Shown here piece after piece: positions 2,929-25,982 of a DNA stretch of 28,132 nt. The translations under genes were made by a program, and so were the position numbers. The stretch lies in the IMG/VR virus record IMGVR_UViG_3300005613_000333, positions 1-28,132 of that record; one strand, written 5' to 3'. The notes beneath the pieces are model-generated. The model did not search any database. It had not been told where the DNA came from and worked only from the letters and a program-made list of their open reading frames with translations. Source of the stretch: a virus. Each line of letters begins with the position of its first letter. Position 1 is the first letter of the stretch.

Positions 2929-2954
2929 AAACAAAAATAAGTGTTTAATATTTA
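2929..2954 (+). promoter_or_regulatory. Class 1 promoter-like element before 2975
   Basis: AAACA (2929-2933), 14 bases, ATATTTA (2948-2954); ATG follows after 20 bases. First class 1 site after the early terminator. Its downstream bases (AAAAAAACGA) match those of the site at 5607-5632. Confidence 0.6.
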
Positions 2955-2974
2955 TTAATATAAAAAAACGAAAA

Positions 2975-3649
2975 ATGAGTAATGGAATTAATAGTCAATA
3001 TGATTTCTTTAAAAAGATCTGTTTGGATGATAATGGTTTATTATGTGGTATAGAAGGCATATCAAATGGCTTGTACAAATTAAACGTACAATTCGAAGAA
3101 TTATCGAAAGCATTAAGTGGGAATACTTGTTGTAATGAAATAATCATCAATAATAATATTGGTGGCACTACTAAAAAAAAAGTTGTTAGATATAGCTGTA
3201 ACAATTCAGTATGTAAACCAAAGGTAATAAATAACTTCATACCAACACCTAGGTTCTTTAAAAAAATAACCTATCAACCAATTAGATGTGGAAATGAAGT
3301 ATTAACAATATTAAATATAAATGGCTTTGCCGTAGTAACTACTAGTAGGTATCCTAGACCAATGAATCCTAGTAAGGCAATAAAAATACCAAGAAAAGAT
3401 ACAGTATTAATACAAGAAAGAGATTCTAATGGCCATATAAAACCAACAGAGGTATTAAAGAAAGGATTACCCAAACTTAAAATACCATTTGGATATGTAT
3501 ACCCAGACGGAACAAAAACACCTGTTATACCTGAGGCCTATATAGACTCAAAAGGAAAATTAAAAAGACCACCACAACATATGGTTGGAAGTAAGAACTG
3601 GTCAGCATCCTGGAAATTACCAGAATATCAACAATACTTAAATAAATAA
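2975..3649 (+). CDS. Putative virion protein with fibre-type N-terminal motif
   Basis: A 224-residue protein. Its first 25 residues (MSNGINSQYDFFKKICLDDN, then GLLCG) match the start of the YadA-like fibre at 24501 and of the small protein at 24303. The shared pattern is FFK or FFE, a short segment, then D-x-N-G. After a Cys-containing stretch (CCN, SCNNSVC at about 52-80), the C-terminal half is basic and rich in Pro, Gly and Tyr, ending in a KNWSASWKLPEYQQYL segment. It opens the class 1 unit that carries the terminase genes. The shared N-terminus suggests that it docks onto the same virion site as the fibres. The C-terminal domain is not recognised. Confidence 0.65.
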   Translation: MSNGINSQYDFFKKICLDDNGLLCGIEGISNGLYKLNVQFEELSKALSGNTCCNEIIINNNIGGTTKKKVVRYSCNNSVCKPKVINNFIPTPRFFKKITYQPIRCGNEVLTILNINGFAVVTTSRYPRPMNPSKAIKIPRKDTVLIQERDSNGHIKPTEVLKKGLPKLKIPFGYVYPDGTKTPVIPEAYIDSKGKLKRPPQHMVGSKNWSASWKLPEYQQYLNK

Positions 3650-3652
3650 AAT

Positions 3653-3958
3653 ATGGAACAAGAATTAAAAGATGAAATCGAAAGATTATTGAGTTTGAGA
3701 AAAACAACTAAAACTGATGTTAGATCATTGGTTACAATTTTAAAAGAACACGTAGATAAAAGAATTGCTATATGTGCTCATTGTAAAGCACAGATTAAAT
3801 TCGGTATGAAACAACTTAGTAACTGGTATACAAATGTTAATCAAAATACAAGTGTAGAATATAAGGTTAAAAGATGTCAGATTTGTAATATCGAATTGGA
3901 AGATAAAAGACGTAAGGTCTGTAAAGAATGTAAAAGCAATGGGGTATCAAAAGCGTGA
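3653..3958 (+). CDS. Small zinc-finger-like protein
   Basis: A 101-residue protein with a helical N-terminus (about 1-38) and three CxxC pairs: CAHC at 41-44, CQIC at 75-78 and CKEC at 90-93. The last two pairs are 12 residues apart in a basic context (KRCQICNIELEDKRRKVCKE) and probably bind one zinc ion. The first pair may bind another with residues not obvious here. It starts three bases after the stop of the upstream gene and lies directly before terminase. DNA binding or an HNH-like remnant are possible, but no catalytic HNH histidines are visible, so no enzyme activity is proposed. Confidence 0.65.
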   Translation: MEQELKDEIERLLSLRKTTKTDVRSLVTILKEHVDKRIAICAHCKAQIKFGMKQLSNWYTNVNQNTSVEYKVKRCQICNIELEDKRRKVCKECKSNGVSKA

Positions 3959-4064
3959 TAAGATAGATAAACCAAAGGACCAATTGGTTTTGGATAATGC
4001 TTGGATAAGAGCATTAAATTTGGAAATAAAGAAAAGTTATGGCAAAAAAGAAATTAACACCTAA
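3939..4064 (+). CDS. Possible 41-residue overlapping ORF before terS
   Basis: ATG at 3939, overlapping the last 20 bases of the zinc-finger gene and the first 26 bases of terS. It gives MGYQKRDKIDKPKDQLVLDN followed by AWIRALNLEIKKSYGKKEIN and T. It fills the only untranslated stretch between the zinc-finger gene and terS, has a polar amphipathic composition and could couple translation of the two. There is no homology evidence, and the overlaps on both sides could be chance. Confidence 0.4.
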   Translation: MGYQKRDKIDKPKDQLVLDNAWIRALNLEIKKSYGKKEINT

Positions 4065-4428
4065 ACAATTTAAATTTGTTCAGGAATATCTAATTGATAT
4101 GAATGCTACACAAGCCGCTATAAGAGCAGGTTATAGTGAAAAAACTGCTTATTCACAAGGCCAAAGACTGTTGAAAAAAGGTGAGGTACAAGATTTATTA
4201 AATAAAAAACAAGAACAACACGAAATTCAATGTGATATCAAAAAAGAAGATATCATTAAAGATCTAATAAAAATAAAGGAAGATAATATAGAAGACTGGC
4301 CACCACACGCATTAAAAGCATTAGAAATGTTAAATAGAATGTTAGGTTATAATGAAGCTGAAAAAATAGATCATACAGTAAAACAAGAGCCACCTATGTT
4401 TTCCGATGATGATTTACTTGAAGAATAA
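4039..4428 (+). CDS. terS: Terminase small subunit
   Basis: A 129-residue DNA-packaging recognition protein of the Terminase_2 family. The N-terminus has the family signature: LTPKQFKFVQEYLIDMNATQ, then AAIRAGYSEKTAYSQGQRLL (about 6-45), a helix-turn-helix that binds the packaging site. A central helical oligomerisation part (about 50-100) and an acidic C-terminal tail (FSDDDLLEE) follow; such tails commonly contact the large subunit. The stop shares one base with the terL start (TAATG), so the two are translationally coupled. The length is normal for the family. Confidence 0.93.
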   Translation: MAKKKLTPKQFKFVQEYLIDMNATQAAIRAGYSEKTAYSQGQRLLKKGEVQDLLNKKQEQHEIQCDIKKEDIIKDLIKIKEDNIEDWPPHALKALEMLNRMLGYNEAEKIDHTVKQEPPMFSDDDLLEE

Positions 4429-5606
4429 TGGAATTTCAGTATACTAAAGCGATATCCAAAATAAGGAAATTAAAAAAACGTATCAAAGTAATACAAGGAG
4501 GTTCTAGTGCTGGTAAAACAATAGCAATCCTAGCAATACTAATAGATAAATGTTTAAAGACTGACAATTTGTCAGTATCCGTAGTAGCTGAATCTACACC
4601 TCATCTTAGAAGAGGTGCTATTCGTGATTTTATTAATATCTTAAAAGCGACAAAAAGATTTGATCAAAATCAATGGCATACTACTAATTCAACTTATAGA
4701 TTTCAAAATGGTTCTTATATTGAATTCTTCTCAGCAGACCAAGGAGATAAGTTAAGAGGAGCTAGAAGAGATATTTTATATATTAATGAAGCTAACAACA
4801 TACAACGTGATGCTTACTTAGAATTAGCGATGAGAACTAATCAAGATATTTTTATTGATTATAACCCAAGTCATAACTTTTGGAATAAAGAGGTTTTAGA
4901 GGATGATAATTCAGAATTACTTATCCTAACCTATAAAGATAATAATGGTTTGCCACAGAACGTTATAGACTTCTTAGAATCAAAAAGAGAATTGGCTAAA
5001 AGTAGTGAATATTGGAATAATTGGTGTAAAGTATACCTTGATGGACTTGAAGGTAAATTACAAGGTACCATTTTCAATGATTACAAGATAATAGATAAAA
5101 TACCTGAAGAAGCTAGATTATTAGGATTAGGAATGGACTTTGGTTTTACCAATGACCCATCAACTTTAATTGCTATCTATAAATGGAACGATGAAATTAT
5201 AGCTGATGAAATATTCTATCAAAAAGGATTACTTAATTCAGATATTGCCAAATTAATTAAAAATAATGGCTTTGATAGAAATATTATTTATGCTGATTCA
5301 GCTGAACCTAAATCTATTGCTGAATTAAAAAGATATGGTATTAAAATAATGGCAACAGATAAAGGTAGAGATTCTGTTAACTATGGTATTGAATTAATAC
5401 AAGAGCAGAAATTATCCATAACCAAAAGATCTAAGAATTTACTAGACGAACTATCTAAATATATTTGGAAGTTGGATAAGGAAGGTAATAATACCAATGT
5501 ACCTATAGATGCTTTTAACCACGCAATAGATTCTTTAAGATACGCAGTAATGATGTTATTGAAGAAGAAACGAGTGGAAGGATTTAAACCATTTAAGATA
5601 ATGTAA
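4428..5606 (+). CDS. terL: Terminase large subunit
   Basis: A 392-residue packaging motor of the PBSX/Terminase_3 type. The ATPase half has Walker A at 24-31 (GGSSAGKT) and Walker B at about 116-121 (ILYINE, with Glu121 as catalytic glutamate). The coupling region follows at about 141-145. The RNase H-like nuclease half has Asp237 in GMDFGFTNDPST, Asp290 in IIYADSAEPKSI and Asp361/Asp368 in DAFNHAIDSLRY, a full metal-binding set. It cuts concatemers or circles and pumps DNA into the prohead through the portal encoded at 21091. The length is slightly below the usual 400-450. Portal and protease genes do not follow directly, unlike in many siphophages. Confidence 0.96.
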   Translation: MEFQYTKAISKIRKLKKRIKVIQGGSSAGKTIAILAILIDKCLKTDNLSVSVVAESTPHLRRGAIRDFINILKATKRFDQNQWHTTNSTYRFQNGSYIEFFSADQGDKLRGARRDILYINEANNIQRDAYLELAMRTNQDIFIDYNPSHNFWNKEVLEDDNSELLILTYKDNNGLPQNVIDFLESKRELAKSSEYWNNWCKVYLDGLEGKLQGTIFNDYKIIDKIPEEARLLGLGMDFGFTNDPSTLIAIYKWNDEIIADEIFYQKGLLNSDIAKLIKNNGFDRNIIYADSAEPKSIAELKRYGIKIMATDKGRDSVNYGIELIQEQKLSITKRSKNLLDELSKYIWKLDKEGNNTNVPIDAFNHAIDSLRYAVMMLLKKKRVEGFKPFKIM

Positions 5607-5632
5607 AAACAAATAAGATGAAATAATATTTA
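5607..5632 (+). promoter_or_regulatory. Class 1 promoter-like element before the tail chaperone gene
   Basis: AAACA (5607-5611) immediately after the terL stop, 14 bases, ATATTTA (5626-5632); ATG after 17 bases. Confidence 0.6.
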
Positions 5633-5649
5633 TAAATAAAAAAACGATT

Positions 5650-6234
5650 ATGGTAAAAATAGTAACAAATTTAGATGATGAAACTAAGGAATTTATGATT
5701 CCAGAAAATTGGGATGAGGTCACTGTAGGCCAATTCACTCAGTTATTTGATATCAATAGAAAGGCATTAAACCAATATGAGATATCAGTTAAGATGATTA
5801 ATATCTTCTCAGACATACCTGAAGATTTAATTTTTATGATGCCTGTAGCTGACTTTGAAAAGATAGCACAAGTATTAGAATTTACCTTAACAGATATTCA
5901 AGGTGATTTGGCTGATTCTATTGAATTAGAAGGTGAGACTTATTTTTTAAAGAAAGACTTTGAATCACTAACTATGGGTGAGGTAATAAGTATTGAAACA
6001 CTTATTAATAGTGCTGATGGTAATTTATTCAAGGTAATGGATAAATTATTATGTTTATTTTTAAGAAAGAAAAAAGAGAATGGTAAACTAGAAACATTTA
6101 AAACTGATTTTATGGAAAGAGCTGATTTATTTAAGAAAGCTCCTATTGGTAAGATTTATAACATATTTAATTTTTTTTCAGATGGCGTAAGTTCATCAGG
6201 GACCAGTATGAAGGAATCTTTACCAAAAGTGTAA
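5650..6234 (+). CDS. Tail assembly chaperone, short (G-like) product
   Basis: A 194-residue zero-frame product. It is acidic and mostly helical after a short beta N-terminus (MVKIVTNLDDETKEFMIPEN, then WDEVTVGQFTQLFDI). This opening is typical of phage chaperones that read 'WdelTlgqf'. It is the first gene of a tail unit and carries a T-run near its 3' end that would allow a -1 shift into a long downstream frame. This is the gpG/gpGT arrangement of siphophages. The chaperone coats the tape measure protein during tail assembly and is absent from the mature virion. The sequence similarity is weak; the call rests largely on the frameshift architecture. The tape measure gene is unusually far away (14552). 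Confidence 0.7.
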   Translation: MVKIVTNLDDETKEFMIPENWDEVTVGQFTQLFDINRKALNQYEISVKMINIFSDIPEDLIFMMPVADFEKIAQVLEFTLTDIQGDLADSIELEGETYFLKKDFESLTMGEVISIETLINSADGNLFKVMDKLLCLFLRKKKENGKLETFKTDFMERADLFKKAPIGKIYNIFNFFSDGVSSSGTSMKESLPKV

Positions 6235-6449
6235 ATAAGAAAAAACAAAAAAGTAGATTCGATGATTTACGCCAAGAATTAGAATTAGATGATAAATATA
6301 AATGGTTGGAAATGGTTCATTTATTATTAAAAGAGTTAAATACAACCGATACAGAGATATATAAAAAAAATTACATTAGCTGTTTGAATTGGATAGCCTA
6401 TTTTTATCAAAGAGCTAAGATTAATGAAAGTAAAAAAGGAAAAATATGA
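5650..6449 (+). CDS. Tail assembly chaperone, -1 frameshift (GT-like) product
   Basis: Predicted 266-residue product. It comprises 176 residues of the zero frame up to codon 6175-6177, then a -1 slip on the T-run, then 90 residues ending at TGA 6447-6449. The downstream -1 frame (FRWRKFIRDQYEGIFTKSVN onward, to RAKINESKKGKI) is open for the whole 215-bp gap that otherwise has no gene and has no start codon of its own near the slip. It also ends in an ATGA overlap with the next gene. It has ordinary protein composition (KYKWLEMVHLLLKEL). In lambda-like phages the T extension binds the tail tube protein and the G part the tape measure; the same division is inferred here. Confidence 0.72.
6171..6178 (+). 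other. Slippery site for -1 ribosomal frameshifting
   Basis: Eight T in a row, with the zero frame reading AAT TTT TTT TCA. The heptamer T TTT TTT fits the X XXY YYZ rule and both tRNAs can re-pair after slipping back one base. No strong stimulatory hairpin is obvious just downstream. Confidence 0.7.
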
Positions 6450-7555
6450 GTACTAACATAATATCATTAAACCAGTTGGTAGATTTATTTAAGAGTTTCG
6501 CTGATAGACATTATTTTATTAATGATTTTGGGTATGGGCCAACAAGTGATATCGGTACTAGCAGACAAATGGATTTCCCTTATATGTGGTTAACCTTAGA
6601 TCAACCATCAACTATAAGGGTACAAAATAAAACAACAATACCAGACCTTTATTTCTCAGTCTTATTTATGGACAAAATTAATATTCAAAAAAATTATTTA
6701 GATATTAATGGTGTTGATTCTGATAATAGCCAAGAAGTATTAAGTGATATGCTTCAGTTATTACAAGATTTAATAGTAGAAATAGAAACTAAATGGGGTA
6801 ATTATGGTATTAAAATAGAAGGTGATGTTTCTTGTTATCCAGCAGTGGATGAAACAACAGACAAAGTTAATGGTTGGGTTGGACAATTCTTATTAAAGAT
6901 TAAATATGCCAATTGTATTTTACCAACAGGTGATATCGTACAAACTAATATTAGTCCAATTAACCCTTATACACGTTATCTTACTTGTGATACACTTTCC
7001 AATTGTGAGCTAATACAGAATATAGAAAATACTTTAAATGCTGCCAATCTAAGATTATTTAGTCAAACAGGTGATTCTGTAACAATAATCAATACCGATG
7101 TTGAAACAAGTATTATAGATGGCGGTGTAGGTACTTTAAATGTTCCAGCCAATGGTTTTAATATCGGAGATTCTTTTAGAGTTGTAATGAGTGGACGTCT
7201 TTCTAATTTAAATAATACTGATATTAGAATTAAGTTAAAATCAGGTTCAGTAATATTAGCTGATAGTGGTTTCCAAAGCATAATACAACACAATAATGAT
7301 ATCTATAAAATTGAAACTGATTTCACTATTAGAAATATAGGTGGAGCTGGTACAGCAGAAATAGTTACAATAGGTACATTCCAAACAACAAAGAAAAATA
7401 GTTCCACTGTAACAGGCTTTGCGTATGAAGATACTAATAACACTACTTTTGATACTACAATACCTAATACATTAGATATTACAGTAGAATGGGCTACAGC
7501 TAGTACTAGTAATTCAATAAAATCACAAGTATTTACCTTAACTAAAACATACTAA
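6446..7555 (+). CDS. Tail completion/terminator-like protein with C-terminal beta domain
   Basis: A 369-residue protein. The N-terminal part (about 1-170) has the size and pattern of tail terminator or completion proteins: a helix with HYFINDFGYGP, strands WLTLDQPSTIRV and LYFSVLFMDK, a long helix SDMLQLLQDLIVEIE, then GQFLLKIKYANC. The C-terminal part (about 190-369) is a jelly-roll-like beta domain. Its signature IINTDVETSIIDGGVGTLNV, then PANGFNIGDSFRVVMSGRLS, recurs in phage surface and fibre proteins. The gene starts in an ATGA overlap with the frameshifted chaperone and overlaps the next gene by one base. The fusion of an internal tail part with a surface-type domain suggests exposure at the tail or neck. 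The role is inferred. Confidence 0.6.
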   Translation: MSTNIISLNQLVDLFKSFADRHYFINDFGYGPTSDIGTSRQMDFPYMWLTLDQPSTIRVQNKTTIPDLYFSVLFMDKINIQKNYLDINGVDSDNSQEVLSDMLQLLQDLIVEIETKWGNYGIKIEGDVSCYPAVDETTDKVNGWVGQFLLKIKYANCILPTGDIVQTNISPINPYTRYLTCDTLSNCELIQNIENTLNAANLRLFSQTGDSVTIINTDVETSIIDGGVGTLNVPANGFNIGDSFRVVMSGRLSNLNNTDIRIKLKSGSVILADSGFQSIIQHNNDIYKIETDFTIRNIGGAGTAEIVTIGTFQTTKKNSSTVTGFAYEDTNNTTFDTTIPNTLDITVEWATASTSNSIKSQVFTLTKTY

Positions 7556-8007
7556 TGGCTGATAATAAATTAATATCTGATAAAAAGTTAAACGAGTTCG
7601 GTAAGGACTATGTTAAAATTCTATATAGATTATTAAGAAAAAAAGATAAGGTTGCTACTGGAGCCTTAATTAATTCTTTAAATCATACTATTAGAGAAGA
7701 TGCTAATCAAATATTAATACAAATAGAGGCTAATGATTATTTAAAGTGGGTTGATGAAGGTAGAAGACCTGGTACTTATCCACCAATTAGACCTTTAGTA
7801 GAATGGACACAAGTAAGAGGAATTAATCCTGGCGTAGCATACGCAATACAAAAATCCATCTATAAATTTGGTATTAAACCAACAAATGTAATACAAGAAA
7901 CAATTACAGAAATAGAATCATCACCAACACTACAAAGAAAATATGAAGATGAGGTGGTTGATAACTTAATAAAAATGATAAATAACGATTTTAATTTAAA
8001 ACAATAA
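7555..8007 (+). CDS. HK97 gp10-like tail completion protein
   Basis: A 150-residue protein resembling HK97 gp10-type neck/tail completion proteins. An N-terminal helix is followed by ATGALINSLNHTI (the family's 'tGrLr.Si' region). Strands ILIQIEANDYLKWVDEGRRP then lead to GTYPPIRPLVEWTQVRGIN and a C-terminal helical part, AIQKSIYKFGIKP. The 'Y..wvdeGr.pg..PPi..l..W...kg' pattern is characteristic. The ATG overlaps the preceding stop by one base (TAATG), and the next gene starts one base after its stop. It should join head connector to tail or cap the tail tube. Confidence 0.78.
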   Translation: MADNKLISDKKLNEFGKDYVKILYRLLRKKDKVATGALINSLNHTIREDANQILIQIEANDYLKWVDEGRRPGTYPPIRPLVEWTQVRGINPGVAYAIQKSIYKFGIKPTNVIQETITEIESSPTLQRKYEDEVVDNLIKMINNDFNLKQ

Positions 8008-8008
8008 T

Positions 8009-10343: not shown

Positions 10344-10369
10344 AAACAATACATCATAAAAAATATTTA
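10344..10369 (+). promoter_or_regulatory. Class 1 promoter-like element before the tip/fibre gene
   Basis: AAACA (10344-10348), 14 bases, ATATTTA (10363-10369); ATG after 15 bases. It lies directly after the terminator, so a new transcript is needed here. Confidence 0.65.
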
Positions 10370-13300: not shown

Positions 13301-14233
13301 AATATTGTAGCAACAGAACCAAATACATTATATACTAATAATATAATAATGACTTCAGGTTCCACTATTAATGGTACACCTATAACAACCATAATATCAG
13401 CAGCAACACCTACATTAGATTTTGTTTTAAGCAATGGTAATCAGACTTTAGGTAACGATATTTTAATGACATCAGGTGATGTTATAGAAAGCACCCAATC
13501 AGCTGGTTATTTAGATTTAGCTTTGGCTGGTGATCAAATAATAGAATTAAGTGTATCAGACGGTACTATAACAGATTTTTTACAATTAGACCCAGGTATA
13601 GTTAATAATGGTACTGAATTATCTTCATTAGATACCGTATCAAATGATAAATCAGCCTTATATGTAGACCCACAATCATTTAATTTATATACAACAGATG
13701 ATAATACTGATTATCAAGGAATTGTAGAATCTAATTATGTTGCTTTTACTAATACTTTAACAACACAAATAAAAGCTGAAGATTTATTAAATACCAATCA
13801 AGCTAGTGTTACATTACAAGCTGATATTGGTGCTGGTACTACTGATATTAATATTTTAGCTGATACGATAGATGTCAATGGTGATTTGGAAGTTGATAAC
13901 ATATCTTTTGATGCTGGTACAACTAAATGGGTATTTACTGAAATTAATATCGGTGATTGGGATATGGATACTACCGCTACATTATTTGTTAATCACGGTT
14001 TATCTGTGACAGAATGGAAAACAATAACAAATGTACAAGTAATAGTAAGAGATGATTTTGATATTACCTATTATCCATTAAGTGATTATAATGGTACTTC
14101 AGCGGGTGTTAATTATTTTGATTCCACTGCATTTCTATTAGCGAGACAAACAGGTGGTTCATTTGATACACCATCATTTTCAACCACACCATTCAATAGG
14201 GGGTTTGTTTCTTTTTGGTATAAACCTGATTAA
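10385..14233 (+). CDS. Tail tip/fibre protein, 1282 residues
   Basis: The longest gene. The N-terminal domain (about 1-120) reads DTYDNVNISFNYQIEDILDI, then KKSNYSKTITLPGTSFNNNF, a conserved-looking opening that I associate with tail-tip proteins of Bacteroidota phages. A large beta region follows to about 790. A Cys-rich knot lies at about 797-840 (DSCPSD, then NEDCCSALGGDWIGGTCWYR). A glycine-asparagine repeat zone at about 890-975 has units such as YGDNNGI, YGNNNTV, LGNNSSI and FGDNIVA, resembling the left-handed beta-roll of YadA heads and related to the fibre at 24501. The last 105 residues (TTKWVFTEINIGDWDMDTTA onward) form a separate beta domain, the likely receptor-contacting tip. It probably links tail-tip structure and host recognition in one chain. 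Confidence 0.7.
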   Translation: MNKFTIIANGKELDTYDNVNISFNYQIEDILDITKKKSNYSKTITLPGTSFNNNFFKQLFDVNIDNVTFNPKKAIPCVIQIGNSDIMSGNLQLLNVVSNQKQVDYEVVILGQLKNIMTQFDDYSLKNLDLSKWDHIRSQENIVSSWNYDVIEWNTLNSYSEPGNGYVYPYIIYGQHSDIYSHLYTSDIFPAFYLKTIIDEMFNFADYTYTSKFFNSDYFKKLILPFNEDKLQLSEEEFNQRKTVIGIDGTINETTYPLRNFYTDTYGDISTATGYRAISTLRINSPGWFYNDFQGYWIPLERESGLYNDVTFQDPLDSWFELNQDPTVGPSYAYYECQQSGYYDINFDANVIMRYVHEDGNNIEYQGGSTIKMRTQLLKVHNGSIISLDDTGSIDFTPSTGSNSSPWKDTQNPISIDVSASNIFLYEGDRLYIRFGFNYGGSNWAGNDQKVFAQALLPTVASDKITAFNVIPSNNTLAGIDDAINVNQVIPDMKMKDLFVSIIKMFNLVVVDDPNDENNLIIEPRDDYYKSRQKVLDWTYKLDHNSDITITPMSELDANSFLYTYKQDSDYYNEQYDSETGRIYGDYEIDVDNDFSDKEEKLELAFSPTPNGQWGIWDRIAPFFTTIDDLDIKPKKVKPRILFYGGLVDMGLGIYLKDFVGQALVESTFMEQYPYCGMWDNPYTPTYDLGFGTTDKIYFDANYYPVNNLIEQFHKNTLLDIIDVNSKLLEASFYLTPKDIAELDFRDIILIDNSYWRINKVKDYDPIGSDSLTKVILYKINDVNIFNPDTEDLAISNDSCPSDIRAVKTIQGVYYISDSGQSINEDCCSALGGDWIGGTCWYRTKWETISYNEAYKTLVKKGSNNITPTAQVKTEKEFSNNNSVDSFDVTVKGFNNVIGPNVQSSAIYGDNNGIVPQSNNIQLYGNNNTVNTGINNAIILGNNSSIELPSLLSGATSATTATSLNNVVIFGDNIVATEPNTLYTNNIIMTSGSTINGTPITTIISAATPTLDFVLSNGNQTLGNDILMTSGDVIESTQSAGYLDLALAGDQIIELSVSDGTITDFLQLDPGIVNNGTELSSLDTVSNDKSALYVDPQSFNLYTTDDNTDYQGIVESNYVAFTNTLTTQIKAEDLLNTNQASVTLQADIGAGTTDINILADTIDVNGDLEVDNISFDAGTTKWVFTEINIGDWDMDTTATLFVNHGLSVTEWKTITNVQVIVRDDFDITYYPLSDYNGTSAGVNYFDSTAFLLARQTGGSFDTPSFSTTPFNRGFVSFWYKPD

Positions 14234-14234
14234 T

Positions 14235-14528
14235 ATGATAATTAAATTAAAACTATTAAATAGAACTAAAATATTAGGAATTACATTATGGCCTTTCATC
14301 TTTGTTAAGCCTAATGTTAATGATGTGGTTATTAATCACGAAAGAATACATATAGAACAACAAAAAGAATTATTAGTTCTAGGCTTCTATATTTTGTATC
14401 TATGGTGGTCTATAAAGTATGGCTATAGAAATAACCCATTAGAAGAAGAAGCATACAACTGGGAGAGAGTAGGCAATTATATGAAGATTAGAAAGAGATG
14501 GAATTACTTTAAAAACAATAGTAAATAA
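14235..14528 (+). CDS. Small HExxH protein, possible zinc peptidase
   Basis: A 97-residue protein (MIIKLKLLNRTKILGITLWP onward) with HERIHIEQQ at about 37-45, a perfect HExxH zinc motif. A further acidic site follows the hydrophobic segment (NPLEEEAYNWERVG), about where a third ligand would lie. A hydrophobic stretch, LVLGFYILYLWWSIKYGY (about 49-66), may be membrane-associated. I know this short 'NHERIH..QQ' protein as a hypothetical family in Bacteroidota. The ATG at 14235 is chosen over an in-frame ATG at 14154 because it is one base after the preceding stop, whereas the longer form would overlap the fibre gene by 80 bases. In the absence of an endolysin it could act in lysis, wall penetration or virion processing; none of these is shown. 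Confidence 0.6.
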   Translation: MIIKLKLLNRTKILGITLWPFIFVKPNVNDVVINHERIHIEQQKELLVLGFYILYLWWSIKYGYRNNPLEEEAYNWERVGNYMKIRKRWNYFKNNSK

Positions 14529-14538
14529 AAAATATTTA
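14513..14538 (+). promoter_or_regulatory. Class 1 promoter-like element before the tape measure gene
   Basis: AAACA (14513-14517, within the last codons of the HExxH gene), 14 bases, ATATTTA (14532-14538); ATG after 13 bases. Confidence 0.6.
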
Positions 14539-14551: not shown

Positions 14552-17098
14552 ATGGCTCAAACCGCTCAAATAAATATCAATTTAAATGCTAAACAAGCAC
14601 AATCAGAATTCGATAATTTAAGAAAGAATCTAAGTGTTGCCAATAAAGAATTAGAATCACTAATCAAAACATATGGTGAGAATTCCAAACAGGCTGATAA
14701 GCAACGTAAAGTAATTGCTGGTCTATCACTTGAATACGATAAATTAAATAAAGAATTTACTGATTTAGGTGCTACCTTTGAAGATGTTGCTGGTGAAATG
14801 AAACCATTAACAGGTAGATTAGGTGAAATAGAAGATCGATTATATGAATTAAGTTTAGCTGGTGAAGCAGGTACCAAAACATTCAATGATTTGGTTGCTG
14901 AAGCTGGTAGAATGAGACAAACCATTATTGAAACTGATAGACAAGTTGATGCTGCCGCATTAACATTAGACCAAAAATTAGGTGGAGCTTTAATGGGTAT
15001 TACCTCTACCTTCGCTATAGCACAAGGAGCTATGGGTATATTTGGTGCTGAATCAGAGAATGTTGAGAAGGCACTATTAAAGGTTCAATCAGCGGTAGCA
15101 TTATTACAAGGATTTAAAGAATTAAAAGAGGCAGCACCAATCTTTAAAGGTATAGCAACTCAAGTATTAAAAACACAAGCTGGTCAAATGGCATTAAACG
15201 CAGCAATGAAAGTATATGCTGTGGTAACAAAAGCAATGACAGCTGTACAATGGGCCTTCAATGCCGCACTAAATGCTAACCCAATTGGTGCTATAGTTAT
15301 TGCCATAACTGCTTTAATTGCTGCTGGTTACGCTTTAATAAAATTATTCTCTTGGTTTACAGAAGATACAATATCTGCTGCTGAGGCAAACGAACAGTTA
15401 AATGCTAGTATTGAGAAACAAAACGCTTTATTCGAAGATAACGCTAATAAAATAAGAAAGAATGCTGAGAATAGAAGAAGATTATTGGAAATATCTGGAG
15501 CCTCAGAAGAACAATTACATCAAGATACATTAAGAAGATTAAAAGAAGAAGAGGATTTAAGAAAAGAAGAATTAACTAATGTAAAAGATCGTTTAAAAGA
15601 ACGTAGAGAGTTATATAAACAAGCTAAAAAAGAAGAAGATGATGATACTGCTAGAGCAATTAAAGAAGAAATACAAAAAGATAAAGAAAGATACAAAGAG
15701 CTAGAATTAAATAATAAAGAATATAATATAGCTGTAAAAGAAGAGAATAAGAGGTATCAAGAAGAAAAAGAAAAAGAAGATCAAAAAGCAGCTGAAGAAG
15801 AAGATAGAAGAAGACGTGAGGCTATAGATAAGTATAAACAATATCTACAAAATAGACTTTCAGCTGAAAGACAAATACAAGATTTAGAACTTTCTTTAAT
15901 GAAAGAAGGTTTAGATAAACAATTAAAAGAAAATGAATTAAACTTCGATAGATTAGTTGAGGATACAAAAAGTAATACCAACTTAACTCAAAAAGAAAAA
16001 GAGAGGATAATCTCTTTATATGAAAAACAAAGAAAAGATAAAGAAGATAAAATAAGAAAAGATTTCTTAGATGCTGAAAAAGAAAAGTTAGATAAACAAA
16101 ATCAACAAATAAAAGCAGCACAAGATGAATGGGCTCAACAAGAAGAAGATTTTTATGCTGAATATGAACAAAATACTTTATCGACACAAGAATTAGAAGT
16201 TAGAGCTGTAGAAGATAAATATTTTAGATTAATAGAACTTGCCAAACAATATGGTTTAGATACAGCAGAATTAGAAAGAAGACAACAAGAAGAAATTAAT
16301 AAGATTAATAAAGAGTATGAGGATGAAAGAATAGCTAATACTAAAACTAGTGTTCAAAAATTCGCTGAAAATGCTTTAGAAGTAATCGATACTTGGGGTA
16401 GTCAAGTTTTGGCTGTTGGTCAAGCAGTAGCTGATGCCTTTAATGTTATAGCTGAAAATCAATTAGCTCAAATTGAACAAAGTTATAATGAAGAGGCGAC
16501 AGCACAAGAACAAATGTTAGCTAATGGTCTTATTAATCGTCAAGAATATGATGACAATCTTGAACAACTTGACCGTTCAAGAATGGAAAAAGAAAAGGCT
16601 ATAAAAAGAAAACAGTTCCAAATAGATAAAGCTAATAGAATAGCTGAAGCGATTATGAGTGGAGCTCAATCAGTATTATCAGCCTTAACTATTCCACCAC
16701 CAGTAGGTACAATAATGGCAGCAATAAATGGAGCTTTAGCAGCAACACAAATTGGTATAATATCAGCACAACAATTTAAGGCAGCAAGAGGTGGTATTGT
16801 TCCAGGTAATGGTCCAGGTAATGTTGATTCGGTACCTTCGTTATTAGCTCCAGGTGAAGCAGTTATTAACGCTAATTCAGCAGCAATGTTCCCTAATCTA
16901 TTATCAATGGTTAATCAGGCTGGTGGAGGACAACCATTGGTACCTGATACTGCTAATATTGGTTCAGGTTCAGCTGGTAGTGGTACTATCTTTACTGAAA
17001 ATAAACAACAATCACCATTAAAGGCTTATGTTGTGGAATCAGAAATGACATCAGCACAAAAAAGAGTTAACAGAATCGAAAGAGCTGTTGAGTATTAA
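14552..17098 (+). CDS. Tape measure protein
   Basis: An 848-residue protein with the classic layout. An N-terminal coiled coil (about 10-75) is followed by hydrophobic segments: GALMGITSTFAIAQGAMGIF at about 145-165, and ANPIGAIVIAITALIAAGYA at about 245-270. A very long charged coiled coil (about 280-620, dense in KEEE/RRR runs) comes next. Another hydrophobic stretch near 700-750 leads to a Gly-Pro-rich end containing GGIVPGNGPGNVDSVPSLLA, then PGEAVINANSAAMF, a C-terminal signature widely shared by tape measures. It sets tail length and helps DNA cross the host envelope. At the usual ~0.15 nm per residue it predicts a tail of roughly 125 nm, implying a long-tailed (siphovirus-like) particle. 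Confidence 0.93.
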   Translation: MAQTAQININLNAKQAQSEFDNLRKNLSVANKELESLIKTYGENSKQADKQRKVIAGLSLEYDKLNKEFTDLGATFEDVAGEMKPLTGRLGEIEDRLYELSLAGEAGTKTFNDLVAEAGRMRQTIIETDRQVDAAALTLDQKLGGALMGITSTFAIAQGAMGIFGAESENVEKALLKVQSAVALLQGFKELKEAAPIFKGIATQVLKTQAGQMALNAAMKVYAVVTKAMTAVQWAFNAALNANPIGAIVIAITALIAAGYALIKLFSWFTEDTISAAEANEQLNASIEKQNALFEDNANKIRKNAENRRRLLEISGASEEQLHQDTLRRLKEEEDLRKEELTNVKDRLKERRELYKQAKKEEDDDTARAIKEEIQKDKERYKELELNNKEYNIAVKEENKRYQEEKEKEDQKAAEEEDRRRREAIDKYKQYLQNRLSAERQIQDLELSLMKEGLDKQLKENELNFDRLVEDTKSNTNLTQKEKERIISLYEKQRKDKEDKIRKDFLDAEKEKLDKQNQQIKAAQDEWAQQEEDFYAEYEQNTLSTQELEVRAVEDKYFRLIELAKQYGLDTAELERRQQEEINKINKEYEDERIANTKTSVQKFAENALEVIDTWGSQVLAVGQAVADAFNVIAENQLAQIEQSYNEEATAQEQMLANGLINRQEYDDNLEQLDRSRMEKEKAIKRKQFQIDKANRIAEAIMSGAQSVLSALTIPPPVGTIMAAINGALAATQIGIISAQQFKAARGGIVPGNGPGNVDSVPSLLAPGEAVINANSAAMFPNLLSMVNQAGGGQPLVPDTANIGSGSAGSGTIFTENKQQSPLKAYVVESEMTSAQKRVNRIERAVEY

Positions 17099-17122
17099 AC
17101 ATAACAATAAAAAAAATATTTA
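17097..17122 (+). promoter_or_regulatory. Class 1 promoter-like element before the protease gene
   Basis: AAACA (17097-17101, overlapping the tape measure stop codon), 14 bases, ATATTTA (17116-17122). The ATG is only 5 bases further, which implies a leaderless transcript. Confidence 0.55.
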
Positions 17123-18228: not shown

Positions 18229-18254
18229 AAACAGTATTAAATAATAAATATTTA
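18229..18254 (+). promoter_or_regulatory. Class 1 promoter-like element before scaffold and major capsid
   Basis: AAACA (18229-18233), 14 bases, ATATTTA (18248-18254); ATG after 15 bases. Nearest recognisable promoter for the capsid gene. Confidence 0.62.
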
Positions 18255-20007: not shown

Positions 20008-20030
20008 GGGGGAGTTTATCTCCCCCTTTT
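20008..20030 (+). terminator. Terminator after the capsid gene, inside a larger stem
   Basis: Stem 20008-20014 with 20020-20026 (GGGGGAG/CTCCCCC), 5-base loop, then four T. An outer 8-bp stem (19983-19990 CTCTCTAT with 20031-20038 ATAGAGAG) encloses it and reaches into the capsid stop codon. The T-tract is short and no class 1 element follows before the next gene, so partial read-through is likely. Confidence 0.82.
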
Positions 20031-20078
20031 ATAGAGAGTAGAAAAAAAATAATAAAATTAAAATAAAAAAATAAAATT

Positions 20079-20600: not shown

Positions 20601-20612
20601 TCTTTCATCATC

Positions 20613-20630
20613 AAGGATTCTGTCCTTTTT
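20613..20630 (+). terminator. First of two tandem hairpins after the tail tube gene
   Basis: Stem 20613-20617 with 20623-20627 (AAGGA/TCCTT) and a T-run at 20626-20630. A short terminator. Confidence 0.55.
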
Positions 20631-20645
20631 CGTTTTAGTATATGG

Positions 20646-20670
20646 ACCCCCGCAGAAATGTGGGGGTTTC
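20646..20670 (+). terminator. Second, stronger hairpin after the tail tube gene
   Basis: 9-bp stem 20646-20654 with 20659-20667 (five G-C pairs, one G-T) capped by a GAAA tetraloop, followed by a broken T-tract. Together with the preceding hairpin it insulates the highly expressed gene. Confidence 0.75.
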
Positions 20671-20681
20671 TTATTTAATTT

Positions 20682-20707
20682 AAACAAAAAAATAGATCCT
20701 ATATTTA
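20682..20707 (+). promoter_or_regulatory. Class 1 promoter-like element before the portal unit
   Basis: AAACA (20682-20686), 14 bases, ATATTTA (20701-20707); ATG after 12 bases, just downstream of the double terminator. Confidence 0.65.
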
Positions 20708-20719
20708 TAATAAAATTAT

Positions 20720-21088: not shown

Positions 21089-21090
21089 TT

Positions 21091-22197
21091 ATGGAAAAAA
21101 ATTTTAAAATATACTCATTTAATCAGGCCTATCAGGCACCTGAATATAAATGGGATGCTAAAAATGGATTTATTACTTGGGGGTCAGATAATAATTATCC
21201 TCAATATCTAATAGATCTATATAATATTAATGGTTCAGCAACACATAAATCAATCATTAATAAAAAATCTAGATTGGCAACAGGATTCGGTATCAAACCA
21301 GTAACAAATCCTGAATTAAGTAAATTTATTAAAGATAAAAAATTAGAGAAATTATTTAGAAGATTAGAAAAAGACTTTGAAATCTTTAATGGTTATGCTT
21401 TTGAAATAATATGGAATAATGATGGTTCAGATTTCTCTATAAATTATGTTCCATTACATAAAATAAGAATTGGTATTCAAAATGAAGAATATTCTGAGCC
21501 ACATTTTTGGTTTAGTACTGATTGGACTAAGTATAAAAAAGAAGAATATAAGCCACAATATATAGCTAAATTCGATCCTAATATTAGAAAAGGAAAACAA
21601 CTATATTATTATACAGAAGAAAATCCACAAGCAGATGATTTATATCCAATTGCTGGTTATTCTTCAGCTATAAACTGGATTGAATTGGATTATGAAGTAT
21701 CTAAATTTCATTTAAATCAAGTTAAACAAGGATTCGCCCCATCCTTTATATTAAACTTTGCCACAGGTATTCCTACTGAAGAAGAAATGGATGAGTTTTA
21801 TCGTGATTTTAAACGTAATTATTCATCAGCTGAAAACGCAGGTAAAATAATTATCACATATTCAGAAGGAGCTGATGGTAAACCTGAATTAATACCAATT
21901 CAATTAAATGACTCTGATGAGCGTTTTATTATGTTACAGGATATGGTTGAAAAGAATATTGTTATGGGTCACGAAGTACCACCACAATTGGTTATTTTAA
22001 CACCTGGTAAATTAGGGTCTACAGATGAACGTAAGGAACTTTTACAAGAATTCCAATCATACTATATAACACCTCGTCAAGAACAATTAGAGGAGGGTGT
22101 AAATGAAGCAGTATCTTTATTAGGGTTTGGTGAAGAAGTTAAATTAAACGAATATAAAGATGTGGAAAATAAAGATAATAAACAAATAATACAGTAA
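21091..22197 (+). CDS. Portal protein
   Basis: A 368-residue portal-like protein. The N-terminal region is FITWGSDNNYPQYLIDLYNI, then GSATHKSIINKKSRLATGFG (about 27-67). The wing contains LEKDFEIFNGYAFEIIWNND. The stem/crown helix region includes IPTEEEMDEFYRDFKRNYSS and LNDSDERFIMLQDMVEKNIV, followed by GHEVPPQLVILTPGKLGSTD, a stretch close to typical portal 'f.vPp.llG....' motifs. A long helix, ELLQEFQSYYITPRQEQLEE, ends the core. The dodecameric ring at the head vertex is the docking site for terminase. It is shorter than most portals (400-500), as in minimal Bacteroidota phages. It lies downstream of the capsid gene, not next to terL. Confidence 0.83.
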   Translation: MEKNFKIYSFNQAYQAPEYKWDAKNGFITWGSDNNYPQYLIDLYNINGSATHKSIINKKSRLATGFGIKPVTNPELSKFIKDKKLEKLFRRLEKDFEIFNGYAFEIIWNNDGSDFSINYVPLHKIRIGIQNEEYSEPHFWFSTDWTKYKKEEYKPQYIAKFDPNIRKGKQLYYYTEENPQADDLYPIAGYSSAINWIELDYEVSKFHLNQVKQGFAPSFILNFATGIPTEEEMDEFYRDFKRNYSSAENAGKIIITYSEGADGKPELIPIQLNDSDERFIMLQDMVEKNIVMGHEVPPQLVILTPGKLGSTDERKELLQEFQSYYITPRQEQLEEGVNEAVSLLGFGEEVKLNEYKDVENKDNKQIIQ

Positions 22198-22199
22198 TT

Positions 22200-22784
22200 A
22201 TGGCAACATTAAAAGTTAAATTTATCAGTACTGACTATTTAAAAGAAAATACAACAATAGAAGAAAATGTTGATGACCATAAATTGGTTCCATTTATTTA
22301 TTCAGCACAAGATACACATATACAACAAGTATTAGGTGCTTCATTTTATAATAGATTAAAAGAAGGTGTGGTTAATAATAACTTAAATTCGGATGAAGAA
22401 GATTTATTACGTGATTATATTCAACCAGCATTAGCTCAATGGTCGTTTTATGAGGTTTATCCTTTTTTAAATTTTAAAGCAACCAATAAAGCAATATCAA
22501 AAGAATCTTCTGAATGGTCTCAAGCATCTGAATTGGATGAAATTAAGTATATGAGACAAAGTATTAGAGATTTGGCTGAATTTTATTTAAAAAGATTAGT
22601 TAAATTTTTATGTGATTATACACATTTATTCCCTAAATATCAGAACCCTGATTCAAAAGATAATTTACCTAAGAATAGTAAGGCCTATTTCAACGGTGTT
22701 TATTTAAGCAGACAAAAACCTAAGTGGGATATCCCAACTTATAATGAGCCTGATGAAGGTCCTGATGGATGTTACGATTGTTAA
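22200..22784 (+). CDS. Head-tail connector protein
   Basis: A 194-residue mostly helical protein two bases after the portal stop. The core pattern is VKFISTDYLKENTTIEENVD, then LVPFIYSAQDTHIQQVLGAS, then EDLLRDYIQPALAQWSFYEV. It resembles head-tail adaptor proteins (gp6/gp15-like), in which a helical bundle with a 'i..aQ..yi...lG..fy..l' motif sits under the portal. The C-terminal tail is Pro/Asp-rich and ends in GCYDC. It should link portal to the completion protein encoded at 7555. Confidence 0.72.
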   Translation: MATLKVKFISTDYLKENTTIEENVDDHKLVPFIYSAQDTHIQQVLGASFYNRLKEGVVNNNLNSDEEDLLRDYIQPALAQWSFYEVYPFLNFKATNKAISKESSEWSQASELDEIKYMRQSIRDLAEFYLKRLVKFLCDYTHLFPKYQNPDSKDNLPKNSKAYFNGVYLSRQKPKWDIPTYNEPDEGPDGCYDC

Positions 22785-22795
22785 AATAGAATATT

Positions 22796-23848
22796 ATGCC
22801 ATTAATGAAATGTAGAAAAGATAATAAACCAGGATTTAAATGGGGTCCTGAAGGCAAATGTTATACTTATGATCCAAAGTCACAGATATCAAAAGATAAT
22901 GCTAGAAATAAAGCATTAAAACAAGGTAAAGCAATAGAAATATCAAAGGGTGTTTTTGAGACATCTAAGATTAGTTTTGACTTTGATGGTGTACTTACTA
23001 CTAAAAGAGGTAAAGAGCTTGCCTTACGTAAAATAATGGATGGATATCAGGTTTATATAATATCAGCCAGACATAATAATTATGATATTTTACCAATAGC
23101 TAAAGATTTGGGTATTTTGGAGAGCAGAGTTTATGTTACAGGTTCCAATGAAGCTAAAATAAAAAAGATTTTAGAACTTAATATCGATACACATTATGAT
23201 AATAATCTTAATGTTATTGATCAATTAGATTCTGTTGGGTATAAATTTGAATCTTATAATGATTACCCTAAAGCAGCATCAGAGAATGCTTGTAGAGCTA
23301 TTAAATGGGCTGAAGAAAATGGATGGGGTGATTGTGGTGAAGCTACAGGTAAACGTAGAGCATCACAATTATGTAAAAGAGAAAATATTAGTAGAGATAC
23401 AATAGCAAGAATGGCCTCATTTAAACGTCATCAACAACATAAAGAAGTTAAATACGATGAAGGTTGTGGTGGATTAATGTGGGACGCTTGGGGTGGAGAT
23501 GAAGGTATTGAATGGGCCATCCGTAAATTAAAACAAATAGATAAAAATAATTTTGAATTTAGAAAATGGCGCAGTACTCCAACCTCATCTAATGTTAATA
23601 AAATAATGTATAACGATGAAAGTGAGGAGATGTTTATTCAATTCAAAGATAAATCTATTTATACCTATTATAACGTATCTTTTGATTTATTCTTAAATGT
23701 CTCTGGTGGTAAAGCAACTTGTATTACATCAGGTGAAAATAGATATGGTGAATGGTATATAGGTAAAACACCTTCAGTTGGTGCCTCTGTACATAAATAC
23801 TTGGTTAAGGCAGGAATAAGATATGCTAAGGGTGGGACCCTAAGATAA
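22796..23848 (+). CDS. Four-part fusion with HAD-like phosphatase and KTSC domains
   Basis: A 350-residue protein assembled from recognisable pieces. At 1-50, MPLMKCRKDNKPGFKWGPEG and then KCYTYDPKSQ plus a helix is a short Cys/Trp module common in phage head genes. At about 58-150 there is a HAD-like hydrolase: SFDFDGVL with Asp62/Asp64, IISAR with Ser90, Lys121 and THYDNN. At about 155-248, YPKAASENACRAIKWAEENG, then GKRRASQLCKREN, then GGLMWDAWGGDEGIEWAIRK forms the small domain often seen at the front of capsid maturation proteins. At about 257-345 there is a KTSC-type domain (SSNVNKIMYNDESEEMFIQF, then YTYYNVSFDLFLNVSG). The HAD acids look intact, so nucleotide or polynucleotide phosphatase activity is possible. 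Placement after portal and connector suggests a minor virion or DNA-end processing role. Confidence 0.72.
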   Translation: MPLMKCRKDNKPGFKWGPEGKCYTYDPKSQISKDNARNKALKQGKAIEISKGVFETSKISFDFDGVLTTKRGKELALRKIMDGYQVYIISARHNNYDILPIAKDLGILESRVYVTGSNEAKIKKILELNIDTHYDNNLNVIDQLDSVGYKFESYNDYPKAASENACRAIKWAEENGWGDCGEATGKRRASQLCKRENISRDTIARMASFKRHQQHKEVKYDEGCGGLMWDAWGGDEGIEWAIRKLKQIDKNNFEFRKWRSTPTSSNVNKIMYNDESEEMFIQFKDKSIYTYYNVSFDLFLNVSGGKATCITSGENRYGEWYIGKTPSVGASVHKYLVKAGIRYAKGGTLR

Positions 23849-23873
23849 TAATAAAAATTAAAATAAAAAAAAA

Positions 23874-24263
23874 ATGTTAAATTACAAATCAAAATTAGAA
23901 TACATTAATAACTGTTTGGAGTTATTGACTAATGATATAAAATATATTGTATCAGATTCTAGAATATTAGAGTATAAAGATTCTTCATTAAAACCGTATT
24001 GGTATTTTGAAGTAATAAATAAAGAAATGGTTAAATATGATGCTTATATGACTAAAACTACAGCAGGTAAATCATCACTTAAATTACCATCAGCTATTAA
24101 TAAAGGCAGATTAAACTCTAATTTATTCTTATTATCAATCACTAAGAATACTATTTGGAAAGAATTAATATTCGGTACAATAGAAAATTTTAAATCTAAA
24201 TTGGTACCATTATTAAGAGATCCTAATGATAGAGGTGATGCTGGAGATATCAAGCGTAAATAA
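23874..24263 (+). CDS. Hypothetical protein after the fusion gene
   Basis: A 129-residue protein with an N-terminal helix (KLEYINNCLELLTNDIKYIV), then aromatic strands (LKPYWYFEVINKEMVKYDAY). The basic second half (FKSKLVPLLRDPNDRGDAGD, then IKRK) is presumably exposed. It starts after a long A-rich leader and closes the portal unit. No family is recognised; size and position suit a minor head or neck protein. Confidence 0.65.
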   Translation: MLNYKSKLEYINNCLELLTNDIKYIVSDSRILEYKDSSLKPYWYFEVINKEMVKYDAYMTKTTAGKSSLKLPSAINKGRLNSNLFLLSITKNTIWKELIFGTIENFKSKLVPLLRDPNDRGDAGDIKRK

Positions 24264-24265
24264 TT

Positions 24266-24291
24266 AAACAAAATAAATAATAAAATATTAA
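24266..24291 (+). promoter_or_regulatory. Class 1 promoter-like element, one mismatch, before the fibre unit
   Basis: AAACA (24266-24270), 14 bases, ATATTAA (24285-24291) in place of ATATTTA; ATG after 11 bases. The preserved spacing supports it. Confidence 0.45.
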
Positions 24292-24302
24292 AATAAAAGA
24301 AT

Positions 24303-24482
24303 ATGGCTTTATCACAACATTTAAAGGAGTTTTTTGAGAAGATTAGTGTTGATACTAATGGTAATATCAATATTGTTATTGTACCAAAAGTTAATCCAGT
24401 TCAAAAAGGTGTTAGTGAATATAACACAATAAAACAAGTAGAATTAACACCTGAAGGTTATTTAAAGGTGTATGAAGCATAA
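24303..24482 (+). CDS. 59-residue protein with fibre-type N-terminal motif
   Basis: ATG 24303 to TAA 24480, starting MALSQHLKEFFEKISVDTNG and continuing NINIVIVPKVNPV. The FFEKISVDTNGNI part matches DFFKLVNVDANGNI at the start of the next gene and DFFKKICLDDNG at 2975. The remainder (about 30 residues) is short and beta-prone. It starts with an A-rich leader and is followed 18 bases later by the YadA-like fibre. It may be a capping or adaptor form of the shared docking motif, or a fibre gene reduced to its base. Conserved composition and the motif make it a real gene despite its size. Confidence 0.72.
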   Translation: MALSQHLKEFFEKISVDTNGNINIVIVPKVNPVQKGVSEYNTIKQVELTPEGYLKVYEA

Positions 24483-24500
24483 AATAAAAAATTAAATAAA

Positions 24501-25694
24501 ATGAGTTCAAACGTAAATAATCAATTCGATTTCTTCAAACTAGTTAATGTTGATGCTAATGGTAATATTGGTGTTAATATAATTGGTGGAGGTACAGGTA
24601 GTACAGGAACAGATTTATTTGAAGTAAGTACTGGTTCAGAAAGTATTGTAAGTATAAATACAGTTAATCCCAATTCAGCTTCAGGTGATAGAGCCTTTGT
24701 TGGTGGTGGTCAATTTAGTCAGGCTAATGGTAAAGATTCAGCTGTTATTGCTGGTAATAAAAACTTAGCTGGAACTTTAGAATCAGTTGTTGTTGGTGGT
24801 AAATCTAATAATATTGGTGGTTCATCACCAGATGTATTTATTGGAGGTGGTACTAGAAATGTTGTTAATGTTACTAGTACATATGGTAAGACTGGATCAC
24901 CTACTTTTGGTCACTTTGTTATTGGTGGTGATTATAATCAAATATTAGGTTCAACTCTTGGTAATGAATATACAATGAGAAGTGGTATTGTTGGTGGTAC
25001 TAACAATATATTAAGGGGTAGAGATACAGTAGCTATTAATAGTTCCAATCTTAATATGTATACTTCTAATTCTAATACTTTTATTAATGGTTTAAGTGAT
25101 TATAGTATTGGTTGTAATTATACAACATTAATAAATACAAAAGGAACCAATATAAATGGTGTTACTTCTTCATTAGTTAGTGGTAACTTAAATCAAGTTA
25201 CATCAGGACAACATCATAACATACTTGGATATCGTAATAGTGTTCAAAATTTTAACTATAATACTAATGTATTATCTAATTATGGTAATATAACAACAAA
25301 TAAATCTACTTACGCTTATACATATAACTATAATAACACACTTATAGGTGGATTAAAAAATAGAATGTATTGGAATATTCAGTATGATTATGGTTATTCT
25401 TATAACAATAATAATGCTATTTTAGGTGGTTATAGAAATACTATAAGAAATAATACTCAATATGGTTCTTATTCACATATTAATAATGTAATCATAGGTG
25501 GTCAAAATAATAATATAACCACTACAGATGTCGCAGTAAAAAATACTGTTATTATTGGTGGTGAGAGTATTACAGCAACACAATCAGATACTGTATACTT
25601 ACCAAAGTTAATAATGACTAATGTACCAACAGCATCATCTGGCTTAACAACTGGTTCAGTATGGAGTGATGGTGGAACCCTAAAAATAGTTTAA
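24501..25694 (+). CDS. YadA-like trimeric tail fibre
   Basis: A 397-residue fibre. Residues 1-27 carry the shared docking motif (NNQFDFFKLVNVDANGNIGV). From about 70 to 365 come repeated units ending in V/I-x-G-G or similar: FVGGGQFSQANGKD, VIAGNKNLAGTL, VVVGGKSNNIGG, FIGGGTRNVV, VIGGDYNQILGS, IVGGTNNILRG, LIGGLKNRMY, ILGGYRNTIR, VIIGGQNNNI and VIIGGESITA. Their spacing resembles the turns of the left-handed parallel beta-roll in YadA-type adhesin heads. The C-terminus (ASSGLTTGSVWSDGGTLKIV) is a short cap seen in phage fibres. Trimeric, receptor-facing structure is inferred. Asn/Tyr-rich irregular turns at about 240-340 may be the variable surface. Confidence 0.78.
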   Translation: MSSNVNNQFDFFKLVNVDANGNIGVNIIGGGTGSTGTDLFEVSTGSESIVSINTVNPNSASGDRAFVGGGQFSQANGKDSAVIAGNKNLAGTLESVVVGGKSNNIGGSSPDVFIGGGTRNVVNVTSTYGKTGSPTFGHFVIGGDYNQILGSTLGNEYTMRSGIVGGTNNILRGRDTVAINSSNLNMYTSNSNTFINGLSDYSIGCNYTTLINTKGTNINGVTSSLVSGNLNQVTSGQHHNILGYRNSVQNFNYNTNVLSNYGNITTNKSTYAYTYNYNNTLIGGLKNRMYWNIQYDYGYSYNNNNAILGGYRNTIRNNTQYGSYSHINNVIIGGQNNNITTTDVAVKNTVIIGGESITATQSDTVYLPKLIMTNVPTASSGLTTGSVWSDGGTLKIV

Positions 25695-25706
25695 TAAATA
25701 AAGAAA

Positions 25707-25925
25707 ATGGAAAATTTATATAATTTTAGAGCATATGGTAAGGAAATAGAGTTAAATGACGGTTCAACTGTTATTCTTTTCGCTATTAATAAAATAGAAA
25801 ATTCACAAAAGATTATGGCTAGAATAGCTAATCAAGGTATTGAATTATGGAGTGGAGCTGATTACACAACACACCTTGAAGATAGTGAAGAAGATCTAAT
25901 AAATAGATTTATAGCTGTTATGTAA
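25707..25925 (+). CDS. Hypothetical 72-residue protein after the fibre
   Basis: Starts MENLYNFRAYGKEIELNDGS and continues TVILFAINKI; a small beta-then-helix protein ending LEDSEEDLINRFIAVM. It follows the fibre by 12 bases and is the last gene before a terminator. A fibre assembly chaperone would fit its size and place, but nothing in the sequence proves it. Confidence 0.65.
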   Translation: MENLYNFRAYGKEIELNDGSTVILFAINKIENSQKIMARIANQGIELWSGADYTTHLEDSEEDLINRFIAVM

Positions 25926-25945
25926 TTATCATAAAAGATTATTAA

Positions 25946-25975
25946 AAGGGGAATCTAAACAGTTTCCCCTTTTTT
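25946..25975 (+). terminator. Terminator of the fibre unit, overlapping the next promoter
   Basis: Stem 25946-25953 with 25964-25971 (AAGGGGAA/TTCCCCTT), then T to 25975. The loop contains the AAACA box of the next class 1 element, and the T-tract touches its ATATTTA. Confidence 0.85.
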
Positions 25976-25982
25976 ATATTTA
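25957..25982 (+). promoter_or_regulatory. Class 1 promoter-like element before the sulfotransferase
   Basis: AAACA (25957-25961), 14 bases, ATATTTA (25976-25982); ATG after 14 bases. The element sits on the terminator hairpin of the previous unit. Confidence 0.62.

Follow-up and report, generated by a model that had tools for sequence, protein, structure and literature searches.

What reads a short two-part sequence that recurs, always on one strand, ahead of the late genes of a small phage? The window analysed here, a stretch of 28,132 nt, is a 28.1-kb linear IMG/VR phage record with terminase, tail tape measure, protease, MCP-like and portal genes, its portal being nearest to those of the Nonlabens phages P12024S/L (26% identity). 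A sequence-only reading had listed eight sites in which AAACA and ATATTTA are separated by an invariant 14-base spacer, plus a ninth with one mismatch, and had suggested that they are not chance AT-rich matches and that a phage-encoded sigma factor may read them. All eight are exact matches to AAACA-N14-ATATTTA. A regular-expression search of both strands returned matches on the + strand only, and the same two blocks at any other spacer from 5 to 30 gave none on either strand of the window. Markov simulations predict 0.07 (order-1) or 0.09 (order-3) forward matches per window, with a maximum of 2 in 300 simulations; eight sites thus stand against about 0.1 expected, and the observation is confirmed and stronger than first put. 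We trained a 36-column matrix on 120 sites taken from other phages, leaving the window out, and it ranked exactly these eight and the ninth at the top (all ≥18.9 bits); the next + strand site reached 10.9 bits and the best − strand site 6.6 bits. Two-block unsupervised EM on the upstream regions of the window alone also returned AAACA-14-ATATTTA, with a score of 55.4 vs 25.3 for the best of six shuffles. The claim that the spacer sequence differs between sites held only in part, since the spacer bases are A/T-biased rather than free.

The sites had been placed just upstream of the first gene of each late unit, and this holds with small corrections: they start inside or just past the gap behind the preceding gene, and an ATG follows 31-46 bases after the first base of each. 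All are on the + strand, and nearly every block of virion genes has one at its start. The site at 2929-2954 (22.2 bits) precedes gene 2975; that at 5607-5632 (25.5 bits), directly 3′ of terL, begins at the base right after the stop codon and precedes gene 5650; and that at 10344-10369 (27.7 bits) precedes gene 10385 (1282 aa). The site at 14513-14538 (28.4 bits) overlaps the 3′ end of ORF 14154-14528 and precedes the tape measure gene 14552, while the one at 17097-17122 (20.7 bits) overlaps the last two bases of the preceding gene and serves the head maturation protease-like gene 17128. Gene 18270 and the MCP gene 19063 follow the site at 18229-18254 (24.5 bits), and gene 20720 and the portal gene 21091 follow that at 20682-20707 (26.4 bits). 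The ninth site, at 24266-24291, carries ATATTAA; it was confirmed at 20.6 bits by the relatives' matrix and serves a 59-aa ORF at 24303, then gene 24501. The last, at 25957-25982 (18.9 bits), precedes gene 25997. Several sites were also said to follow a terminator directly. Terminator-like hairpins do lie upstream of 2929 (2885-2914, + strand, of the form GGGGG...CCCTC-T8), 10344 and 20682 (20644-20669), and 25957 is interwoven with one at 25948-25968.

Stretch 25948-25982 is a composite of the hairpin GGGGAATCTAAACAGTTTCCCC and a T tract. The −35 block AAACA sits in the loop, and the T tract makes up some of the spacer, so that certain bases belong to both terminator and promoter. Downstream, a SET-domain protein gene (26727-27164, Pfam E 9e-14) overlaps the end of gene 25997-26809 in the last late unit, labelled sulfotransferase-like from its sequence only. 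Genes 2975-3649 and 24501-25694 contain a weakly similar stretch (jackhmmer 4e-12), and each lies just 3′ of a late promoter (24501 after the 59-aa ORF).

Relatives were collected through the MCP: one scan gave 52, and a second scan with an alignment gave more. Single-protein IMG/VR scans with the 647-1372 sigma (discussed below) or TerL returned no relatives, and an MCP scan of genome contigs found nothing, the alignment scan adding one distant Chitinophaga cymbidii locus for which EM was uninformative. The comparison set comprises these MCP-sharing relatives, the window and the Chitinophaga locus (110 contigs, 1.45 Mb). Across it, spacing 14 occurs 153 times on the forward, late-gene strand and 3 times on the reverse, against 0-9 for other spacings from 10 to 18; 141 sites lie mostly outside genes. 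A reversed control pattern had no match in 29 records. EM stayed at shuffle level or returned another motif in several contigs with exact sites (e.g., G011, G030, G032 and G045). The marks of a phage late promoter class are met, namely a repeated motif, consistent in strand, upstream of late units and kept in relatives. The sites are therefore likely to act as late promoters in a small tailed phage, probably one of Bacteroidota, although the host is not known and there are no transcript data.

The terminase gene shows a pattern of its own. TerL of motif-positive relatives is of two types, with about 24% vs 55-69% identity to that of the window (4428-5606), while the motif is unchanged; such different TerL types beside the same motif imply that the terminase has been exchanged. 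The 34-kb contig G006, behind L019, has two terL genes (2365-3711 and 30280-31674), each with terS and a zinc-ribbon-like gene.

Contigs lacking ATATTTA often carry a changed form of the motif. An early conclusion that the motif is absent in distant relatives was dropped when a de novo search turned up altered −10 boxes, often with AAACA retained. In G013, G016, G017, G019 and G027 the −10 is TATATAT, and many sites have the ATG at index 31 (counting the first A of AAACA as 0). G049 has six AAACA-N14-CTGTTTTATAAAAAA sites, G048 five sites combining the −35 end variant AAACG with AATATTT, and G021 has GAAC with ATATATA; L123 carries AGACA, and G056 has ATATTA with the ATG at index 32. CTGTTTT is also among the −10 variants, as is CGTTAATA. 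In the cultured Nonlabens phage P12024S, seven gene starts are preceded by AAACA-N16/17-GTTAATA-like sites, the ATG lying at index 33 in most; the promoter can also be written AAACA-N16-CGTTAATA, with a CGTT box that agrees with the CGT −10 known from ECF promoters in Flavobacterium (PMC9723704). Other lineages thus keep the AAAC core of the −35 and differ in the −10 or, as with AAACG, at the −35 end.

A third, nearly invariant block, AAA(A), occupies index 30-33, six bases after ATATTTA. It is present at index 31-32 in 98-100% of sites with the ATG at index 36-45 and in 83% of those with the ATG further away; its position is fixed relative to ATATTTA and not to the ATG, whether the latter falls at 36-39, 40-45 or beyond. 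We therefore assign the block to the promoter, and it probably marks the transcription start, an inference made without transcript data. A translation signal was considered and rejected, since the distance to the ATG varies from 29 to more than 300 bases, whereas the spacer and the A block do not vary. Index 32-33 is avoided by the ATG, which falls exactly at 31 in 11 of 146 sites and mostly at 36 or beyond in the others. Site 17097 is of the former kind, with the ATG of protease gene 17128 at index 31, so this message is predicted to be leaderless. In one motif class and in P12024S, as at site 17097, the ATG lies at or adjoining the predicted +1, which would imply leaderless late mRNAs. In Bacteroidota, the probable phylum of the hosts, such messages are the exception: they make up 5.5% in F. 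psychrophilum (PMC9723704), and most F. johnsoniae mRNAs are leadered (PMC6847099).

The sequence-only reading named no sigma factor. Two candidates exist in the window, and the evidence favours gene 2366-2884 (+ strand) over the better-scoring 647-1372. The former encodes a 172-aa protein that meets the ECF criterion of sigma2 and sigma4 only in about 170-200 aa. Its match to NCBIfam TIGR02937 (sigma70-ECF; E 1.8e-6, residues 35-169) reaches 27.7 bits and its homologues reach up to 38.2 bits (1.1e-9), both below the curated cut-off of 42.9. The AlphaFold model (pLDDT 86.9) shows two helical domains at high confidence, and its PDB matches are mostly ECF sigmas across both domains (M. tuberculosis SigL, E. 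coli sigmaE, AlgU and SigW domain 4), with weak Foldseek E-values (best 0.064). The family is present in 21/21 contigs that hold terL and the DNA before it. In three contigs (G023, G050 and G052) the sigma is present and no motif was found. The terminator-like hairpin at 2885-2914 separates the gene from the first late promoter, and the first late site lies at most 150 bases from the sigma stop codon, sometimes overlapping it, in 10 contigs that represent four motif classes. This order of sigma gene, terminator and first site resembles a pre-late to late boundary, with the timing inferred. In G042 and G004 a site precedes the sigma gene, by 119 and 466 bases respectively, and the sigma is thus not always strictly pre-late.

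The other candidate, at 647-1372 (+ strand), is an ECF-type sigma gene with 43.9 bits against TIGR02937, above the 42.9 cut-off, and a match to phrog_1740 (6.7e-11). It was at first taken as the reader and then dropped owing to its patchy distribution: its family was not detected in G005, G006 and G025, all of them motif-positive. Upstream of the conserved sigma these contigs encode other proteins with a match to sigma70 region 2 (G005 24613-25287, −; G006 25992-26669, −; G025 3722-4495, +; coordinates after MCP orientation), one above the cut-off, one just below it and one, in G025, weak. A further sigma slot of variable content thus exists: it holds an ECF-type gene in the window and in about 14 more contigs, and proteins matching sigma70 region 2 in others. 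It suggests a two-sigma cascade in which this slot could possibly hold an early or middle sigma; 647-1372 is probably not the reader of AAACA-N14-ATATTTA.

If the promoter changes by lineage, does the sigma change with it? In the 25 contigs with a motif class, we compared pairwise identities of same- and different-class pairs. Identity in the 2366-2884 family is at least 0.38 within a class and at most 0.36 between classes, without overlap (AUC 1.000); MCP gave 0.814 and TerL 0.685, and the portal, protease and several other genes also reached about 0.98, every one of these families overlapping. The sigma family is thus the only one whose divergence fully separates the motif variants. Phylogeny is a partial confounder of this co-variation, and all but two of the motif classes are represented by no more than a single sigma-bearing contig. 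The strongest single contrast is computed from a dissociation of MCP and sigma: G038, G042 and G045 have an MCP only 56-61% identical to that of the window, yet a window-type sigma and motif, whereas G013, G016 and G019, at 65-68% in MCP, have a divergent sigma and TATATAT. Between these two classes sigma2 identity is 0.16 and sigma4 identity 0.19, vs 0.60 and 0.45 within the window class; the direction fits a changed −10 and a kept −35, but the effect is weak.

We consider it likely that the 2366-2884 ECF-type sigma, together with host RNAP, reads the late promoters. The sigma would be made from the pre-late region; sigma4 would bind AAACA (about −31 to −27) and sigma2 would open ATATTTA (about −12 to −6), with the start at the conserved A-run about six bases further downstream (index 30-33). 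Every late unit would have its own promoter, often behind a terminator, and an mRNA leader of about 0-15 nt. The promoter would evolve together with its sigma, and some lineages would start transcription at the ATG itself. The sites and their statistics, conservation, sigma homology and fold, co-distribution and co-variation are computed; core RNAP binding, promoter binding, initiation, +1, timing and leaderlessness are inferred, in the absence of transcript, binding or infection data.

Other readers of the promoters can be imagined. The 647-1372 sigma might read them, leaving 2366-2884 with another role. It has the best score against ECF models (43.9 bits), and all contigs in which it was found share the motif class of the window, but it was not detected in three motif-positive contigs, as noted above, while no contig that includes terL and the preceding DNA lacks the 2366-2884 family; we regard this as unlikely. 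Even less probable is a host sigma, primary or ECF, with the variants mirroring different hosts. The −10 TATATTTA does look like TAnnTTTG, the −7 box of Bacteroidota, which has the same location (PMC9723704), and the hosts use ECF sigmas. Against this, a TTTG element at the proper distance is lacking, pairs resembling sigma-A boxes occur for the most part about as often as chance predicts and chiefly within genes, virion genes would be odd members of a stress ECF regulon, and the variants track the phage sigma gene.

Fixed bipartite motifs are also known for phage RNA polymerases and DNA-binding activators, and the sites could be promoters or binding sites of that kind. We consider this very unlikely: the bipartite motif, the A block at +1 and the ECF-type sigma gene fit sigma recognition better, and a search of 16 long contigs yielded no match to a single-subunit RNAP, although the control was negative as well. 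Recognition by a phage-encoded sigma is therefore supported as the best reading, in silico and without 5′-end or binding data, because spacing and strand are fixed in relatives, a third block sits at the expected +1, and the motif follows an ECF-type sigma of the phages both in its distribution and in its variation.

A bolder reading, towards which we lean by a narrow margin, is that widespread small Bacteroidota phages carry a fast-evolving ECF sigma/promoter pair with co-evolved specificities, and that in several lineages the distance from −10 to ATG has become locked, giving leaderless late mRNAs. Phylogenetic confounding and the unknown hosts are the main weaknesses of the case as a whole. 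If the sigma reading is right, small Bacteroidota phages, a group with hardly any work on its transcription, would have a defined switch for their late genes; the naturally diverged sigma/promoter pairs, which include at least six variants of the −10 or −35, would help to work out the DNA-reading rules of ECF sigmas; and the predicted leaderless late mRNAs would probe initiation by ribosomes that do not use Shine-Dalgarno sequences.

How does this promoter compare with known ones? The sequence-only reading had called it unlike the Bacteroidota TTTG/TAnnTTTG consensus, and this holds: the two share an A/T-rich −10 with TTT at a similar place, but a TTTG about 19 bases before TAnnTTTG, the −33 element, is lacking, and the sites have AAACA instead. 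There is also a likeness to ECF promoters. The Bacillus SigW promoter is TGAAAC-N16-CGTA, and the Flavobacterium SM6 ECF promoter has a CGT −10 box (PMC9723704); the −35 of the phages shares the AAC core, and the spacing can be read as AAAC-N16-TATT in the window. The retained core and this geometry fit ECF-type recognition. What differs from bacterial ECF promoters is the −10 of the window, made of A and T only, and a regulon consisting of phage late genes.

Sigma factors of phage origin for middle and late genes are established in T4 (gp55) and SPO1 (gp28/gp34) (PMC9429907). As there, a phage sigma would redirect host RNAP to a phage-specific promoter class ahead of the late genes, and, as in SPO1, the window phage and its relatives have more than one sigma gene. 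T4 gp55 additionally needs gp33 and gp45. The present case differs from both in its ECF-type sigma, its ECF-like AAAC −35, its lineage-specific −10 and its genomes of about 30 kb. We found no description of this promoter/sigma family in the open-access literature searched. Late genes driven by a phage sigma are thus already known; what appears to be new is that, in small Bacteroidota phages, the late sigma is of ECF type and paired with a bipartite AAAC promoter, that sigma and promoter drift together from lineage to lineage, and that late mRNAs are predicted to be leaderless although such messages are a minority in the phylum.
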